Shown: positions 2 to 35,163 of the stretch, piece by piece
How the letters are laid out: each line of letters opens with the position of its first letter
Position numbering within the stretch: position 1 is the first letter of the stretch
From: an uncultured Bacteroidales bacterium
GTDB lineage: Bacteria; Bacteroidota; Bacteroidia; Bacteroidales; Bacteroidaceae
DNA length: 64,000 nucleotides
Direction: 5' to 3'
Assembly: GCA_902779845.1 (NCBI GenBank)
Contig: CACZCZ010000012.1
Coordinates: 1 to 64,000 of the forward strand
Translations under genes and position numbers: made by a program
Notes under the pieces: generated by a model
The model's input: only the letters and a program-made list of their open reading frames with translations
What the model was told of the DNA's origin: nothing
Database searches by the model: none

Positions 2-976
2 CACTGGCGCCTCGGCTGCCAGTGCAAGGTCAAGGGCGACCTCGGCATCAAAGTGCCCGACAGCGTCCTCGGCGTCAAGGAGTGGGAGTGCACCGTTATC
101 GGCAACAAGAACGTGGCAACGTTCATCAAGGAGTACAAGGTGGCTCTGCCTGCTGGCGAGCACATGGACTTCGAGCCCGGCTCCTACGCTCAGATCAAGA
201 TCCCTGCTTTCGACTGCATCGACTACGACAAGGACTTCGACAAGTCCCTCATCGGCGACACCTATCTGCCCGCATGGGAGAAGTTCGGCCTCTTCCCGCT
301 CAAGTGTAAGAACCCCGAACCCACCATCCGTGCTTACTCCATGGCCAACTATCCCGACGAGGGCGACATCATCACCCTCAACGTCCGTATCGCCACGCCT
401 CCCTTCAAGCCGAAGGAGCAAGGCCCCGGCTTCATGGATGTCAACCCGGGTATCGCCTCTTCGTACATCTTCAGCCTCAAGCCCGGTGACAAGGTCATCA
501 TGAGCGGCCCTTACGGTGAGTTCCGTCCGCAGTACGGCACAGGCCGTGAGATGATTTGGGTCGGCGGTGGTGCCGGTATGGCTCCCCTGCGTGCTCAGAT
601 CATGCACATGCTCAAGGGCCACGGCGTGAAGGACGAAGACCGCAAGCGCCCCATGCACTACTTCTATGGTGCCCGTGCGCTGGAAGAGATTCCTTTCCTC
701 GACGACTTCCTGCAGCTCGAGAAGGACTTCCCCAACTTCCACTTCCACCTCGCTCTCGACCGTCCCGATCCCAAGGCCGATGCAGCTGGAATCAAGTACA
801 CCCCGGGCTTCGTGGCTCCCGTCATGGGCGACACCTACCTCAAGGCACACGAGGCACCCGAAGACTGCGAGTACTACCTCTGCGGTCCTCCAATGATGGC
901 CAAGACCGTCCTCGACCTCCTGCACTCCCTCGGCGTCGAAGACGACATGATCCGCTTCGACAACTTTGGCGGTTAG
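2..976 (+). CDS. nqrF: Na+-translocating NADH:quinone reductase subunit F, C-terminal part
   Basis: The gene runs off the left edge; reading frame 2 is open from the first base and gives 324 residues. The fragment opens with HWRLGCQ, whose Cys is the last ligand of the NqrF [2Fe-2S] cluster; the membrane anchor and the other cysteines lie outside the window. The FAD-binding ferredoxin-reductase barrel follows (EPGSYAQIKIP, RAYSMANYP), then the NADH-binding half with GGGAGMAPLRAQI and the terminal YLCGPPMM and RFDNFGG. NqrF takes electrons from NADH into the Na+-pumping complex in the inner membrane. It is normally the last gene of the nqr operon, which fits the terminator just downstream. Confidence 0.97.
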   Translation, partial: HWRLGCQCKVKGDLGIKVPDSVLGVKEWECTVIGNKNVATFIKEYKVALPAGEHMDFEPGSYAQIKIPAFDCIDYDKDFDKSLIGDTYLPAWEKFGLFPLKCKNPEPTIRAYSMANYPDEGDIITLNVRIATPPFKPKEQGPGFMDVNPGIASSYIFSLKPGDKVIMSGPYGEFRPQYGTGREMIWVGGGAGMAPLRAQIMHMLKGHGVKDEDRKRPMHYFYGARALEEIPFLDDFLQLEKDFPNFHFHLALDRPDPKADAAGIKYTPGFVAPVMGDTYLKAHEAPEDCEYYLCGPPMMAKTVLDLLHSLGVEDDMIRFDNFGG

Positions 977-2582: not shown

Positions 2583-2587
2583 GATGA

Positions 2588-2622
2588 TTTGACAATTTGA
2601 CAATTTGACAATTTGACGATTT
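2588..2622 (+). repeat. Tandem octamer array, TTTGACAA x4
   Basis: Four head-to-tail 8-base units (2588, 2596, 2604, 2612; the last is TTTGACGA) fill the gap between the polymerase stop and the next ATG at 2630. Similar octamer leaders occur at 29050 and 35132. Confidence 0.9.
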
Positions 2623-18561: not shown

Positions 18562-19122
18562 GCTCGAGCTCCAGAAGGGAGCGCGTCGGCGCCGCGTACG
18601 ATTCCTTCGCCATTGGGAGTGCGCGTTCAGGAGAACTTCTATGCTATCGCTCAGCGCTATGCTCAGGTGGAGGTGCTAGCCTGCCAGCTGATGCCAGACC
18701 ACCTGCATGGCATTCTCTTTGTGCATGAGCAGACAGCGCACCATCTGGGCCAGATGATATCAGGCTTCAAGGCGGGCTGTAACAAGGACTACCGGGCGCT
18801 GGTGCTCGGACAAGGAGCTCGGTCTGCTGTGGCATTGCCACGCCCCACGGAAAACGGTCAGACAGAAGCCGTAGAGCCCCCTGCAACTGACGTGCGACCA
18901 CGACCGCCACGGGAGGCTTATGACCGCGAGCATGGACTGCTGTTTGCCAGCGGCTACAACGACCGCCTGCTCCTGCGCGCAGGGCAGCTGGAACGCTGGC
19001 TGCATTATCTGGCCGACAATCCCCGCCGACTGCTGATGAAACGGCAATGCCCAGATTGGCTGCGGCCGCATTTTCATGTCAACGTTGGTGGCAACACGTT
19101 CTCAGCTATTGCCAATCGCTGA
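18562..19122 (+). pseudogene. Remnant of an IS200-like/RAYT-type transposase
   Basis: The open frame runs from a stop at 18559 to the stop at 19120-19122; the first usable start is TTG at 18613 (169 residues). It contains the HUH motif region (CQLMPDHLHGILFV), HHLGQMISGFKAGCN, EHGLLFASGYNDRLLL with a candidate catalytic Tyr, and WLHYLADNPRRLLMKR, all as in Bacteroidales RAYT-like transposases. The usual N-terminal part is missing, and the frame ends at FSAIANR where relatives continue. A TATCTTTG-like box lies at 18542. It separates the two copies of the secreted-protein module. It is most likely a broken, inactive remnant. Confidence 0.75.
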
Positions 19123-19474: not shown

Positions 19475-21748
19475 TTACTTAACAAGCACTTTCTTACCAT
19501 TAACGATATTGATACCGCGCTGAAGCTTACTCATGCGCTGACCTGCGAGATTATAAATCTCAGCATCGCCCAATGACAATTGTTCATTTTCCACTGCGTT
19601 GATTTTAGTGGCATCATCGCCGAACGAAATGAACGCTTTTACAGCTACACCGAGGTCGGAAATAGCAGTCTTGTCAATATATGCCTTGTTTGCACCGACA
19701 ATGACAGCATCGTCACCTGTCGCACCCTCAGTATTGTAAAGCTTGTTGTTACTCAAGATGAGATAGTTTGCTCCGTCCGGAGCTGTAATCTCTGAGAAGG
19801 TTCCAATGAGGCCATTGTTGGCAATGGGTGAAACGACATCAGCTTGCCAATCTGCACGGAAGAATTGAACGTTTTGTGCCAACGGATCCGAGCCTCTTCT
19901 TCCAACTTCATCATATGACATGTAGAAATATGGTTTACCAGCTTCAAGGAGACCATCGACCCTTTCTAACGAAACACCAGATGCATTCTTGTTAGCTATA
20001 CTGTAAACTAATGCGCCTGATACAGATGCTTTATAGGGCAGACAAATGGTTCCAAATTTCCCAATAGCACTATATGCACGCTCGCAATCACCAACATGAT
20101 ATGAGTCATAAGGGCCATTTGGCGTAAAAGTAGTATTCAAATAGTTGGTCACATATACATTTGAGAGGTATCTATTGGCATCACCACCGCCATAATAACC
20201 ATCTAGAATGAGCGATTTTACATGCTCCAAATCTAATCCTAAACTTGCGAGATGATATAAATCTAAGACAAGAGCATTCTCATTATTGAAGGCATCAAAT
20301 GACATATGTCTAAATTTGCTGCCATCGTATTGGTTGGCTTCTTTAGTGAATGAATGGCCGCCATTATCGGATATTGTTACTTTAGTGCTTCCCTCCTGAC
20401 AAGATTGAGCGGTTGTTATAACGAGATACATCCAATTACGAAGATCCACAGGAGTCTCAAAATTCCAACCGCCTTTAGTTAATAGCTTAGTCTCAGAATC
20501 ATATCCAGTCGCAATCTTGTCAAATGAAAAGATTGCGTCGTTGGCTGTAGCATCCATCGTTACAAAATCTTTATATTGTAAGGTCACCTCTTCAAAGTTG
20601 CTAAAACGGGGGAAATCACCAGCTCCAACACTCAGGGTCAATGTGCTAATGGTTGAAAGAGCGCTTACATCTACAGAGTAGGACGTACTTCCAGCGGGTA
20701 TATTCTCACTTGTTGCATCATATGTGATAGTCCATGTACCCTCTGTTGGAGAACTAAATGTCAATACAAGGTCATCATAACCATCAACTTCAACACCAGT
20801 GATTTCAAAGGCCTTGTCTCCCACTGCAGTTGCAGCTTTTTTTGTTTCAATCGTTGGTGTATTCGTTGAGCCCAGGTCACTTGTAATATCAATATCTTCT
20901 GTCTCAAGTGATCCACCAGAGCCTTTGGAGAAATATATCCTCTTAATCTTAATATTTTTAGAAACCTTTCCACCGCCACTATATAAAATAATGTTTTCCC
21001 AACTAGTCCGATTATGACCATCCTCTAACATATTTAGTGTATACTCTGTTTTGCCACTAAAATAAACAAAATTATCATAATTACCAGGGGCCTTCATTAA
21101 CAAAAGATTTATATCAGAAGCTTCCTCAAATACAATCGTAATCTTTTCCCATCCATCCCTAGTATAGTTATACGGGATATCAAAGACTTTGTCGTAATCT
21201 TTCTCTGTCAGAATAGAAACATAAGAAGGCACATCTGAAAATGTACAGCCCTCTGTCATGAGTTCAGTTGTGTTAGCTGTCTCACGAAAAGGACCTGCAG
21301 CAACATATACATCGGTAAGCACTGCTGAACAATCAGTATCTGTTGATTTAGGTCCCCAGAGTTCAAAAGTAGTCACTGCAGCAGGATTAGCAAACAGATC
21401 CGAAAGATAGATGGCATTTTTACCCTTTGACAGATTGACTGTCTTTTCAACACCTCCAGTGCAGTTAACCTTAAGGTATAGATGGTCGACTCCTTCGCCT
21501 TTAAAATCTGAGACCGTGGCATAAAACGCGGTATATGCACTTAAATCACCTGTAAATCCAGTCGGAATAGCTCTAACAACATTATTTGTACCTTCCCATG
21601 AAAAGGTGTTTGTTGCCGGAGTCCATTTACAATTAGCACCAGACCAAGGTGAACTTGGTGACCAATAAGTCTTTTCCGCTTTAACAGAAGTTGCCCCCCC
21701 CACTCCTAATAGGAGCAAGGAGACAGATAAGAGTAGAATTTTTCTCAT
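19475..21748 (-). CDS. Large secreted protein with sorting tail, function unknown
   Basis: A 757-residue protein with signal peptide (RKILLLSVSLLLLGVGGA). Its N-terminal domain (TYWSPSSPWSG to TTFELWGPKS, about residues 25-130) is homologous to that of the giant esterase at 13495. The rest is predicted beta-sandwich material with low similarity to anything I can name; no hydrolase motif is visible. The end, IYNLAGQRMSKLQRG then INIVNGKKVLVK, is the type IX cargo tail. It could be a surface carbohydrate-binding protein working with the esterase. It is first in the second module and has the copy-2 promoter. Confidence 0.8.
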   Translation of the reverse strand: MRKILLLSVSLLLLGVGGATSVKAEKTYWSPSSPWSGANCKWTPATNTFSWEGTNNVVRAIPTGFTGDLSAYTAFYATVSDFKGEGVDHLYLKVNCTGGVEKTVNLSKGKNAIYLSDLFANPAAVTTFELWGPKSTDTDCSAVLTDVYVAAGPFRETANTTELMTEGCTFSDVPSYVSILTEKDYDKVFDIPYNYTRDGWEKITIVFEEASDINLLLMKAPGNYDNFVYFSGKTEYTLNMLEDGHNRTSWENIILYSGGGKVSKNIKIKRIYFSKGSGGSLETEDIDITSDLGSTNTPTIETKKAATAVGDKAFEITGVEVDGYDDLVLTFSSPTEGTWTITYDATSENIPAGSTSYSVDVSALSTISTLTLSVGAGDFPRFSNFEEVTLQYKDFVTMDATANDAIFSFDKIATGYDSETKLLTKGGWNFETPVDLRNWMYLVITTAQSCQEGSTKVTISDNGGHSFTKEANQYDGSKFRHMSFDAFNNENALVLDLYHLASLGLDLEHVKSLILDGYYGGGDANRYLSNVYVTNYLNTTFTPNGPYDSYHVGDCERAYSAIGKFGTICLPYKASVSGALVYSIANKNASGVSLERVDGLLEAGKPYFYMSYDEVGRRGSDPLAQNVQFFRADWQADVVSPIANNGLIGTFSEITAPDGANYLILSNNKLYNTEGATGDDAVIVGANKAYIDKTAISDLGVAVKAFISFGDDATKINAVENEQLSLGDAEIYNLAGQRMSKLQRGINIVNGKKVLVK

Positions 21749-21859: not shown

Positions 21860-22056
21860 GGGAAAAAGTGCAAAAAATGTGCATCTTTGCCGCCGTTAAC
21901 AATACAATCAGACACCAGCAGCAAGGGCCACAACAGCGCAACCAATGCCGGAGGAGAGTGTCAACATTTTCCGTATGGATAGGAAAAGGTAAAAAAACAG
22001 GGCCTGAAAGGGGTCAACTATATATAGGAAAAGACACGCTGCTAAAAAAATAATGG

Positions 22057-22218
22057 CGTTGCACCGTTGCACCGTTGCAGTCCATGAGAAGGTATTGCAA
22101 AGGGGTGAAAATGGTTCTACTCTATATTATATATAATTTATATATAATATAGAGTAGGGCGAAATTTTGACCTACCCCTACTCTGTGTTTTCAACTGCAA
22201 CGCTGCAACGCGCAACGC
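22057..22218. repeat. Cassette A: inverted octamer triplets around an AT palindrome
   Basis: Left: CGTTGCAC, CGTTGCAC, CGTTGCAG (22057-22080). Right, inverted: CTGCAACG, CTGCAACG, CGCAACGC (22195-22218). Between them is a perfect 19-bp AT-rich stem (22117-22135 with 22139-22157) with a 3-base loop. The right stem arm, AGAGTAGGG, can alternatively pair with CCCTACTCT further right. Confidence 0.85.
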
Positions 22219-22263
22219 ATCATGGGACGCTATGAAAATTTTGTAAAAAAATTCGAGAAATAT

Positions 22264-22293
22264 TTTGAGTGTGTCAATATTTTCGTACCTTTG
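22264..22293 (+). promoter_or_regulatory. Orphan promoter-like pair
   Basis: TTTG (22264-22267), an 18-base spacer and TACCTTTG (22286-22293) match the Bacteroidetes consensus well. Transcription would enter the palindrome array and cassette B, where no open frame of useful size begins; the first ATG (22325) gives only five codons. A non-coding transcript, or a long leader for the GH31 gene, is possible. Confidence 0.5.
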
Positions 22294-22318
22294 CTCTGTC
22301 AAAAGGAAAGAAAATAAG

Positions 22319-22376
22319 AAGACCATGGTCTTTGGGGCTTAAGAGCAAGGTCTTACGCGCTTAAGACCTTGGTCTT
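22319..22376. repeat. 22-base-period array 3 (AAGACC..GGTCTT)
   Basis: Three 14-base palindromic cores, AAGACCATGGTCTT, AAGAGCAAGGTCTT and AAGACCTTGGTCTT, start at 22319, 22341 and 22363, each followed by an 8-base spacer. Period is exactly 22 bases. Confidence 0.88.
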
Positions 22377-22410
22377 CTTATTTACATAAATCACGGCTTT
22401 TTCATTCGTC

Positions 22411-22608
22411 GCGGTAACGCGGTAACGCGGTAACATTTGCAATTCTGAATTACAAGGTAACAAAAGAGAGAAATGATACTTATTATTATATATTATATAA
22501 TATTTGAATATTATATAATATATAATAATAAAATTTCATCCCCCCCTTCAGCTCCCTTCATCTATCATTCCTCCACCACTAAATGTTACCGCGTTACCGC
22601 GTTACCGC
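22411..22608. repeat. Cassette B: inverted octamer triplets around a long AT palindrome
   Basis: Left: GCGGTAAC three times (22411-22434). Right: its exact complement GTTACCGC three times (22585-22608). Between them is a perfect 25-bp AT-only stem (22480-22504 with 22507-22531) with a 2-base centre, followed by a run of C. The layout equals cassette A but the bases differ. Confidence 0.9.
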
Positions 22609-22895
22609 GTGCCTGCGTGTACTAAAGTGCATCATATCTCATATTTAGAGTTATATGCGTGTATTTTGCTTCCAAATTCGATAAAAATGCGAATTTGGAG
22701 ATAAAATTCTATAAAACAGAGTGATTTTAGGCAAAAACAGTTCGGTTCAGATTTATGACAGATTTATGTTCCATTCATGTGATTGGCGAGATATTGAAGC
22801 ACCAAAACAGGCCATGGTGGCCGGTCTCTTTCTAAAATTAAGGTTTTCGAATGCCCTTTTTTTTTGTTAAGAATGCGAAACTTACATGATTTTAT

Positions 22896-35131: not shown

Positions 35132-35163
35132 ATTGAAACATTGAAACATTGAAACATTGAAAG
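35132..35163 (+). repeat. Tandem octamer array, ATTGAAAC x4
   Basis: Units at 35132, 35140, 35148 and 35156 (the last ATTGAAAG) lie between the kinase stop and the response-regulator start at 35205. Confidence 0.9.

Follow-up and report, generated by a model that had tools for sequence, protein, structure and literature searches.

Dispersed short repeats with mirrored tandem arms and central AT palindromes in Bacteroidaceae, candidate miniature foldback elements

Results

We found that two non-coding cassettes, A and B, in a 64-kb stretch of DNA from an uncultured Bacteroidales bacterium (hereafter the window) are part of dispersed families of repeats, each about 150-235 bp long. Members of these families share one architecture: two inverted arms of short tandem units stand on either side of a central AT palindrome, the arms are mirrored within nearly every copy, the palindromes remain paired while their sequence changes, and in some pairs of copies the homology is bounded by the arms. 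We rate it as somewhat better than an even chance, roughly 57%, that A and B are miniature foldback, MITE-like elements that were spread by an enzyme and whose symmetry is maintained by hairpin-templated correction.

Layout of cassettes A and B

Both cassettes are located within a divergent intergenic region, flanked by a minus-strand ORF starting at 21748 and by a plus-strand glycoside hydrolase family 31 gene downstream (Table 1). A is overlapped only by a 62-aa ORF, and no ORF of at least 60 aa was found inside B. The left arm of A is made of CGTTGCAC units, the third of which is incomplete; its match to the right arm, where the units measure 8 and 7 nt, includes mismatches and one gap. The arms of B form a perfect 29-bp inverted repeat. 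A sequence-only reading had described two matching cassettes at these places, and this was borne out; of the stem lengths it gave, 25 bp is correct for B, while the stem of A measures 20 bp and not 19. It had also held that octamers and stems differ in sequence between the cassettes; the two are not entirely unlike, 50 nt of A aligning with B in inverted orientation at 72%.

Table 1. Positions of the cassettes and of associated sequence features in the window.
Feature	Position	Strand	Remark
Cassette A, whole element, 163 bp	22056..22218	+	Two copies with 95% identity elsewhere in own genome
A left arm, GTTGCACC units	22056..22081	n/a	Sequence inspection and arm test
A central perfect AT palindrome, 20+1+20 bp	22117..22157		
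A right arm, inverted GCAACGC(T) units	22194..22218		
Cassette B, whole element, 200 bp	22410..22609	-	Core model, best match on minus strand
B arm, GTAACGCG units	22410..22438		Perfect inverted copy at 22581-22609
B opposite arm	22581..22609		
B central perfect AT palindrome, 25+2+25	22480..22531		
TACCTTTG, Bacteroidetes-type -7 promoter-like motif, 3' of A	22286..22293	+	
Array of 22-nt AAGACCNNGGTCTT palindromes	22312..22383		Within repeated block bearing A
Larger block in common with C3	21939..22377		90%

In 1000 dinucleotide shuffles of the region 21901-22650 (750 bp) the longest palindrome half was 10, compared to 25 observed, and the longest spaced arm was 14, compared to 29 observed; none of the 1000 shuffles came close to the structure of A and B. 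Within the whole window, palindromes with arms of at least 14 bp and a loop of at most 8 are found only in these two cassettes. A single strand is predicted to fold into one long hairpin.

The -7 motif downstream of A is identical in the copy of A on contig C27 and differs by one base in the copy on C3. We counted 25 occurrences of the AAGACCNNGGTCTT motif across the own genome, versus one for a reversed control. Solo 8-nt arrays of ATTTGACA and ATTGAAAC are present close to gene ends in the window (2587-2617 and 35132-35162), and a scan for spaced inverted arms gave no inverted partner for either of them.

Copies in the own genome and in related genomes

Three copies of A exist in its own genome, the two others (C3:169851-170035 and C27:40756-40930) being each 95% identical to it. 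The C3 copy is part of the larger block listed in Table 1, whereas the C27 copy has only 22056-22377 in common with the window, starting exactly at the left arm of A, which therefore marks its left edge. A second full copy of B was not found in the own genome, neither by BLAST nor with the core model; single arrays of its unit are present on C25 and C32, and a single array of the right arm of A on C2. Period-7 tandem arrays were counted 36 times in 397 kb of the own genome (stretches of C2 and C3) versus 3 times in 394 kb of genome G054.

The sequences compared are draft or metagenome assemblies. BLAST with B gave matches in 12 of 101 genomes and with A in 4 of 101, the own genome included; some matches (L007, L008, L010 and L012) are plain AT-rich similarity and were left out of the comparisons below. 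A covariance model built from six B-type cores matched 9 of 139 same-genus genomes, with 11 matches in G009, 9 in G054, 7 in G056, 6 in G055 and 1-2 in the remainder, counts that sometimes take both strands of one element. With stricter filters, a family-wide draw yielded matches in 6 of 399 genomes, three of them in another genus, g54. The 30 loci returned by the same-genus search, minus three strand duplicates and L146, gave 26 elements; further listed matches were examined in part only. The A-type arm word was found with at most two mismatches in 51 of 139 same-genus genomes, some of the words forming inverted pairs with a spacing of about 105-140 bp, compared to 3 matches in total for its reversed control. 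Plasmid and phage records showed no match for B. Viral contigs were screened with a single narrow exact pattern for A-type pairs and another for the B core, neither of which matched.

Each subfamily has a conserved core sequence, and most B-type copies show the inner border C-ATTT. The earlier view that the structure and not the sequence is conserved is supported by the comparison across 33 elements, with the qualification that there is a conserved core per subfamily and that A-type arm words recur in many genomes.

Chance or an assembly artefact as the origin of the pattern has an almost negligible probability. Assembly may fail at these hairpins: L146:1-142 is a 71-bp perfect foldback at a contig end and probably an artefact, and several contigs break at the palindrome, e.g. 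L023, L025 and L257. However, separate assemblies carry elements at matching sites (L157/L158 and L152/L146), and the shuffles, as noted, never matched the structure. The earlier reading would have been refuted by absence from relatives or by equal frequency in shuffled sequence; the pattern is found in related genomes and is not reproduced by shuffles, and the refutation failed.

Mirrored arms

Arm units vary in sequence from copy to copy, and the two arms of one copy usually mirror each other. We compared left arms with inverted right arms in 33 elements, leaving out L142, whose left flank is truncated by its contig, L146, the foldback at the end of a contig, and L151, which has no left arm. 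The median score was 23 within an element and 8 across different elements, where 39 of 1056 arm pairs scored at least 20, and in 32 of the 33 elements, L003 being the exception, the score was above the best of 1650 shuffles (maximum 13). The own partner arm was unbeaten in only 12 of the 33, because sister copies share arms. The best arm period was 8 in 25 elements, 7 in four, 9 in three and 5 in one, and the 8-base unit first described is therefore typical and not strict, units ranging over 7-9 nt.

Arms may differ where cores agree: L124 carries GTAACGCC units and L144 GTTGCAAA units, with cores 88% identical over 112 nt. In L207 the arms are unlike each other, one being built of GCGCACCA units and the opposite one of CCGTACCA units. 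A-type arm words with two mismatches carried the same substitution in both units in 37 of 73 cases, where 2% is expected; since these rows are related, some of them being one array in two frames, the p-value serves as a guide only.

Palindromes that change and stay paired

Among the 26 distinct model matches, 23 have perfect palindrome halves of 20-29 bp, two have halves of 13 bp and one (L123) is interrupted, a count biased towards pairing because the model contains the stem. The palindromes of the model R1 matches, selected partly for pairing, are likewise a biased sample. Comparison of 13 homologous pairs carries more weight: with 39 edits in total in one half, both copies are still paired outside a loop of 0-3 nt. 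Over the 80 nt next to the palindrome the three copies of A are 3-5 edits apart, yet they carry three different perfect palindromes, and at the orthologous site L157/L158 (95% identity over 1806 bp, same arms) the palindrome has changed from 25+1 to 16+1 and is perfect in either form. Pairing can eventually be lost, as the imperfect palindromes of the A-type copies L032 and L034 indicate. L151, one of the 26 matches, lacks one arm, and L191 has short arms and no palindrome. At 41-52 bp the palindromes are shorter than those that are inviable, and the earlier remark that such palindromes are usually unstable in bacteria was overstated, as this is not a dangerous length.

Stems could also be kept by selection on RNA pairing if the element were transcribed as a 3' UTR, a leader or a small RNA, which we regard as unlikely. 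On either strand, A and B have RNA fold z-scores between -10.6 and -16.7, which is consistent with a structured RNA, as is the position of some copies directly 3' of a small HTH gene or directly 5' of a promoter module. Among 35 arm mismatches in the 33 elements, 14 would be G-U on the assumed core strand versus 2 on the other, but 19 disrupt pairing whichever strand is read, and for many elements our orientation is uncertain, a motif check contradicting it for several. These counts come from the stricter of two alignments; a looser first one was over-extended and gave 22, 2 and 42 others. Furthermore, the copies are related to each other, and the predicted ORFs beside 34 loci vary from copy to copy. 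Three miRNA-precursor matches in Rfam were far below the gathering scores and not credible.

Element boundaries and signs of movement

In six same-genome pairs at different sites the homology stops at both arms: L006/L015 (-104..124), L006/L022, L015/L022, L141/L148 (-90..94), L144/L148 (-87..89) and L123/L140 (-95..95), positions being relative to the centre of the palindrome. Eleven further pairs within a genome show homology that continues beyond one arm or both (L124/L133, L127/L136, L128/L137, L130/L139, L141/L144, L143/L147, L143/L151, L147/L151 and all three pairs of A copies). The arm-bounded pairs, together with the left edge of the C27 copy, support a discrete unit whose copies at times include additional sequence. 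Of the readings proposed at the outset, we favour that of a passive, putatively mobile element; nothing observed spoke for a replication site.

Target-site duplications were not detected in 33 elements, the longest shared word beside the arms having a mean of 3.97 versus 3.78 in mismatched pairs. The A-type arm-word list of 139 genomes, inspected by eye, contained no inward-facing arm pair at transposon distance that would indicate an autonomous parent. No site was found in both filled and empty states; a query with joined flanks led to paralogous gene ends, some bearing the element and some lacking it. Beside an orthologous element, about 1 kb is present in G009 but missing from G056 (L152:1888-2932 vs L146). 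In L108 (19253-19645) a second element with inverted ends of about 24 bp (TTCTGCGTCAATTTAGGTGGTGA) is nested in a foldback-like element.

Comparison with known mobile elements

Like MITEs, the elements are short, non-coding, dispersed in many copies and bordered by inverted ends, and they are mostly intergenic as judged from the predicted ORFs at 34 loci. All 33 (median length 184 bp, range 146-235) fall within the 50-1000 bp, transposase-free class, and their arms form terminal inverted repeats at which homology ends in the six pairs above and runs on in the eleven. In contrast to MITEs, the ends are tandem units without fixed sequence, and neither a target-site duplication (n=33) nor, in the list of A-type arm words, a parent transposon was found; such duplications are frequent and not universal in MITEs according to excerpts of PMC4596501. 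Long inverted ends built of tandem repeats are the hallmark of foldback elements, and the arms are built in this way. Eukaryotic examples such as Tetris (PMC4079207) share this feature and are apparently non-autonomous as well, but their units are far larger (about 220 bp in Tetris), whereas here units of 7-9 nt make up elements of 150-235 bp, and the likeness is one of architecture.

REPINs and REP sequences, as portrayed in sections of PMC3116915, are also miniature, dispersed, inverted and hairpin-forming, and a rival reading takes A and B to be REPIN-like, with a REP-associated tyrosine transposase (RAYT) as their mobiliser. The window contains a RAYT-like ORF at 18613-19119, 3 kb away (NF047646, E 5e-7, below cut-off), and weak RAYT-like matches were obtained in 15 of 20 genomes, with the carriers G000, G055, G152 and others, and also the own genome, among the 15. 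However, no RAYT match was found in G009, G054 and G056, the three genomes with most element matches (completeness 97% for G054, 67% and 62% for the other two), and RAYT was set aside as mobiliser for this reason. A REPIN moreover comprises two REP hairpins, each tagged with a GTAG- or CGTC-type motif (PMC3733652, in part), whereas the arms described here consist of direct tandem units and form no hairpin by themselves. We consider a REPIN/RAYT origin very improbable.

BrickBuilt of Porphyromonas gingivalis is likewise a Bacteroidales MITE with tandem repeats, intergenic placing and promoter elements, but has a 23-nt internal minisatellite and ISPg1-like ends, and mirrored arrays are not mentioned in the portions of PMC4596501 consulted; repeat period and arm sequence differ from those of A and B. 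BrickBuilt, the MITE review PMC10969869 and the REPIN and REP papers, all represented by partial texts, were compared and set aside, and a literature search among open-licence PMC papers gave no description of this design. The elements appear to work like MITEs and resemble eukaryotic foldback elements in their tandem-repeat inverted ends, and we assign them to no named family.

A model for spread and symmetry

The favoured reading, enzyme-spread foldback elements, would work as follows. Short non-coding repeats of about 150-235 bp, consisting of two inverted arms of short tandem units (usually 8 nt) and a core beside the central AT palindrome, would spread between intergenic sites by means of a putative enzyme acting in trans. 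One strand of the element could fold into a single long hairpin, and a change in one palindrome half or arm would then be carried over to its counterpart when replication switches template, while the units within an arm may be homogenised by slippage or recombination. With one-sided changes copied across and units homogenised, the sequence would drift and the symmetry would stay. Mobility, a moving enzyme and template switching as the cause of the symmetry are what we infer from the features described above. Template switching as maker and keeper of hairpins has been documented for RNA genes (PMC8794818, in excerpt).

More tentatively, this may be a family with no fixed end sequence, in which the enzyme recognises the hairpin shape together with the inner C-ATTT border and the core, and new ends arise continually by arm-to-arm copying; a possible reading, to which we give distinctly less than even odds. 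If ends have no fixed sequence, the unlike arms of L207 would be a snapshot of arm change in progress.

Should the model hold, the elements would be natural bacterial test objects for the birth and upkeep of perfect DNA hairpins, since one element can be followed through multiple copies, orthologous positions and altered arms. A single bacterial repeat family would then allow tests of template-switch correction, which the literature, in the partial texts consulted, covers for RNA genes, E. coli reporters, yeast and apes. The model would also describe a way for a mobile element to alter its ends freely, and contig breaks at palindromes may be explained by the elements.

Neighbouring genes

In G009, G054 and G056 the element is located 3' of a small HTH protein gene in 6 of 11 informative gene ends and absent in 5 (13 loci in total; L245 and L264 were left out, as the gene end was not reached). 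The six include the query L207 and L210, where the palindrome is short, as well as L023, L025 and L257, where the contig edge lies inside the palindrome. Two more HTH-gene ends with an element, L124 and L133, were recognised by eye. One member of the small HTH proteins matches Pfam DUF4248 with E 0.013, below the cut-off.

In genus g54 a strongly conserved promoter and GCCGACGGCA-repeat leader module is found at eight loci (L157, L191, L192, L194-L197 and L202). The element lies just upstream in L157, L192, L196 and L202, with 32, 27 and 12 bp between arm end and module in L192, L196 and L202, respectively; L191 has arms alone, the contig edge is reached in L194 and L195, and no element was seen upstream of the module in L197. 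HU-like genes follow 3' of the module in four of the eight loci, namely L191 (weak match), L192 (HU-HIG, PF18291, E 3.6e-12), L194 and L202. Downstream of A in the window come a similar promoter motif and the array of 22-nt palindromes; a search for HU-like genes there gave none.

The short distances to the module, with HU-like genes downstream in L192 and L202, and the six occupied HTH-gene ends would suit a site in cis that is bound by the DNA-binding proteins, HU-like or HTH, encoded nearby, i.e. a candidate protein-bound cruciform travelling with those genes. Five informative HTH-gene ends are nevertheless without the element, and most copies, A and B included, have no HU-like, HTH or smalltalk gene in the flanks examined at all loci, which makes this reading quite improbable next to the foldback elements favoured here.

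DUF3987 genes were considered as carriers and rejected: 11 of 26 genomes matched, yet the association is not a rule. An element is located near a DUF3987 gene in L064 and near a similar ORF in L104, with solo arrays in the own genome. A repeat of TTTTCCT...GTTGA type, recognised by eye, often adjoins the elements (L145, L159, L142, L149, L035 and window 21940-22050); L145 and L159, from different genera, have 54 nt of it in common at 94%.
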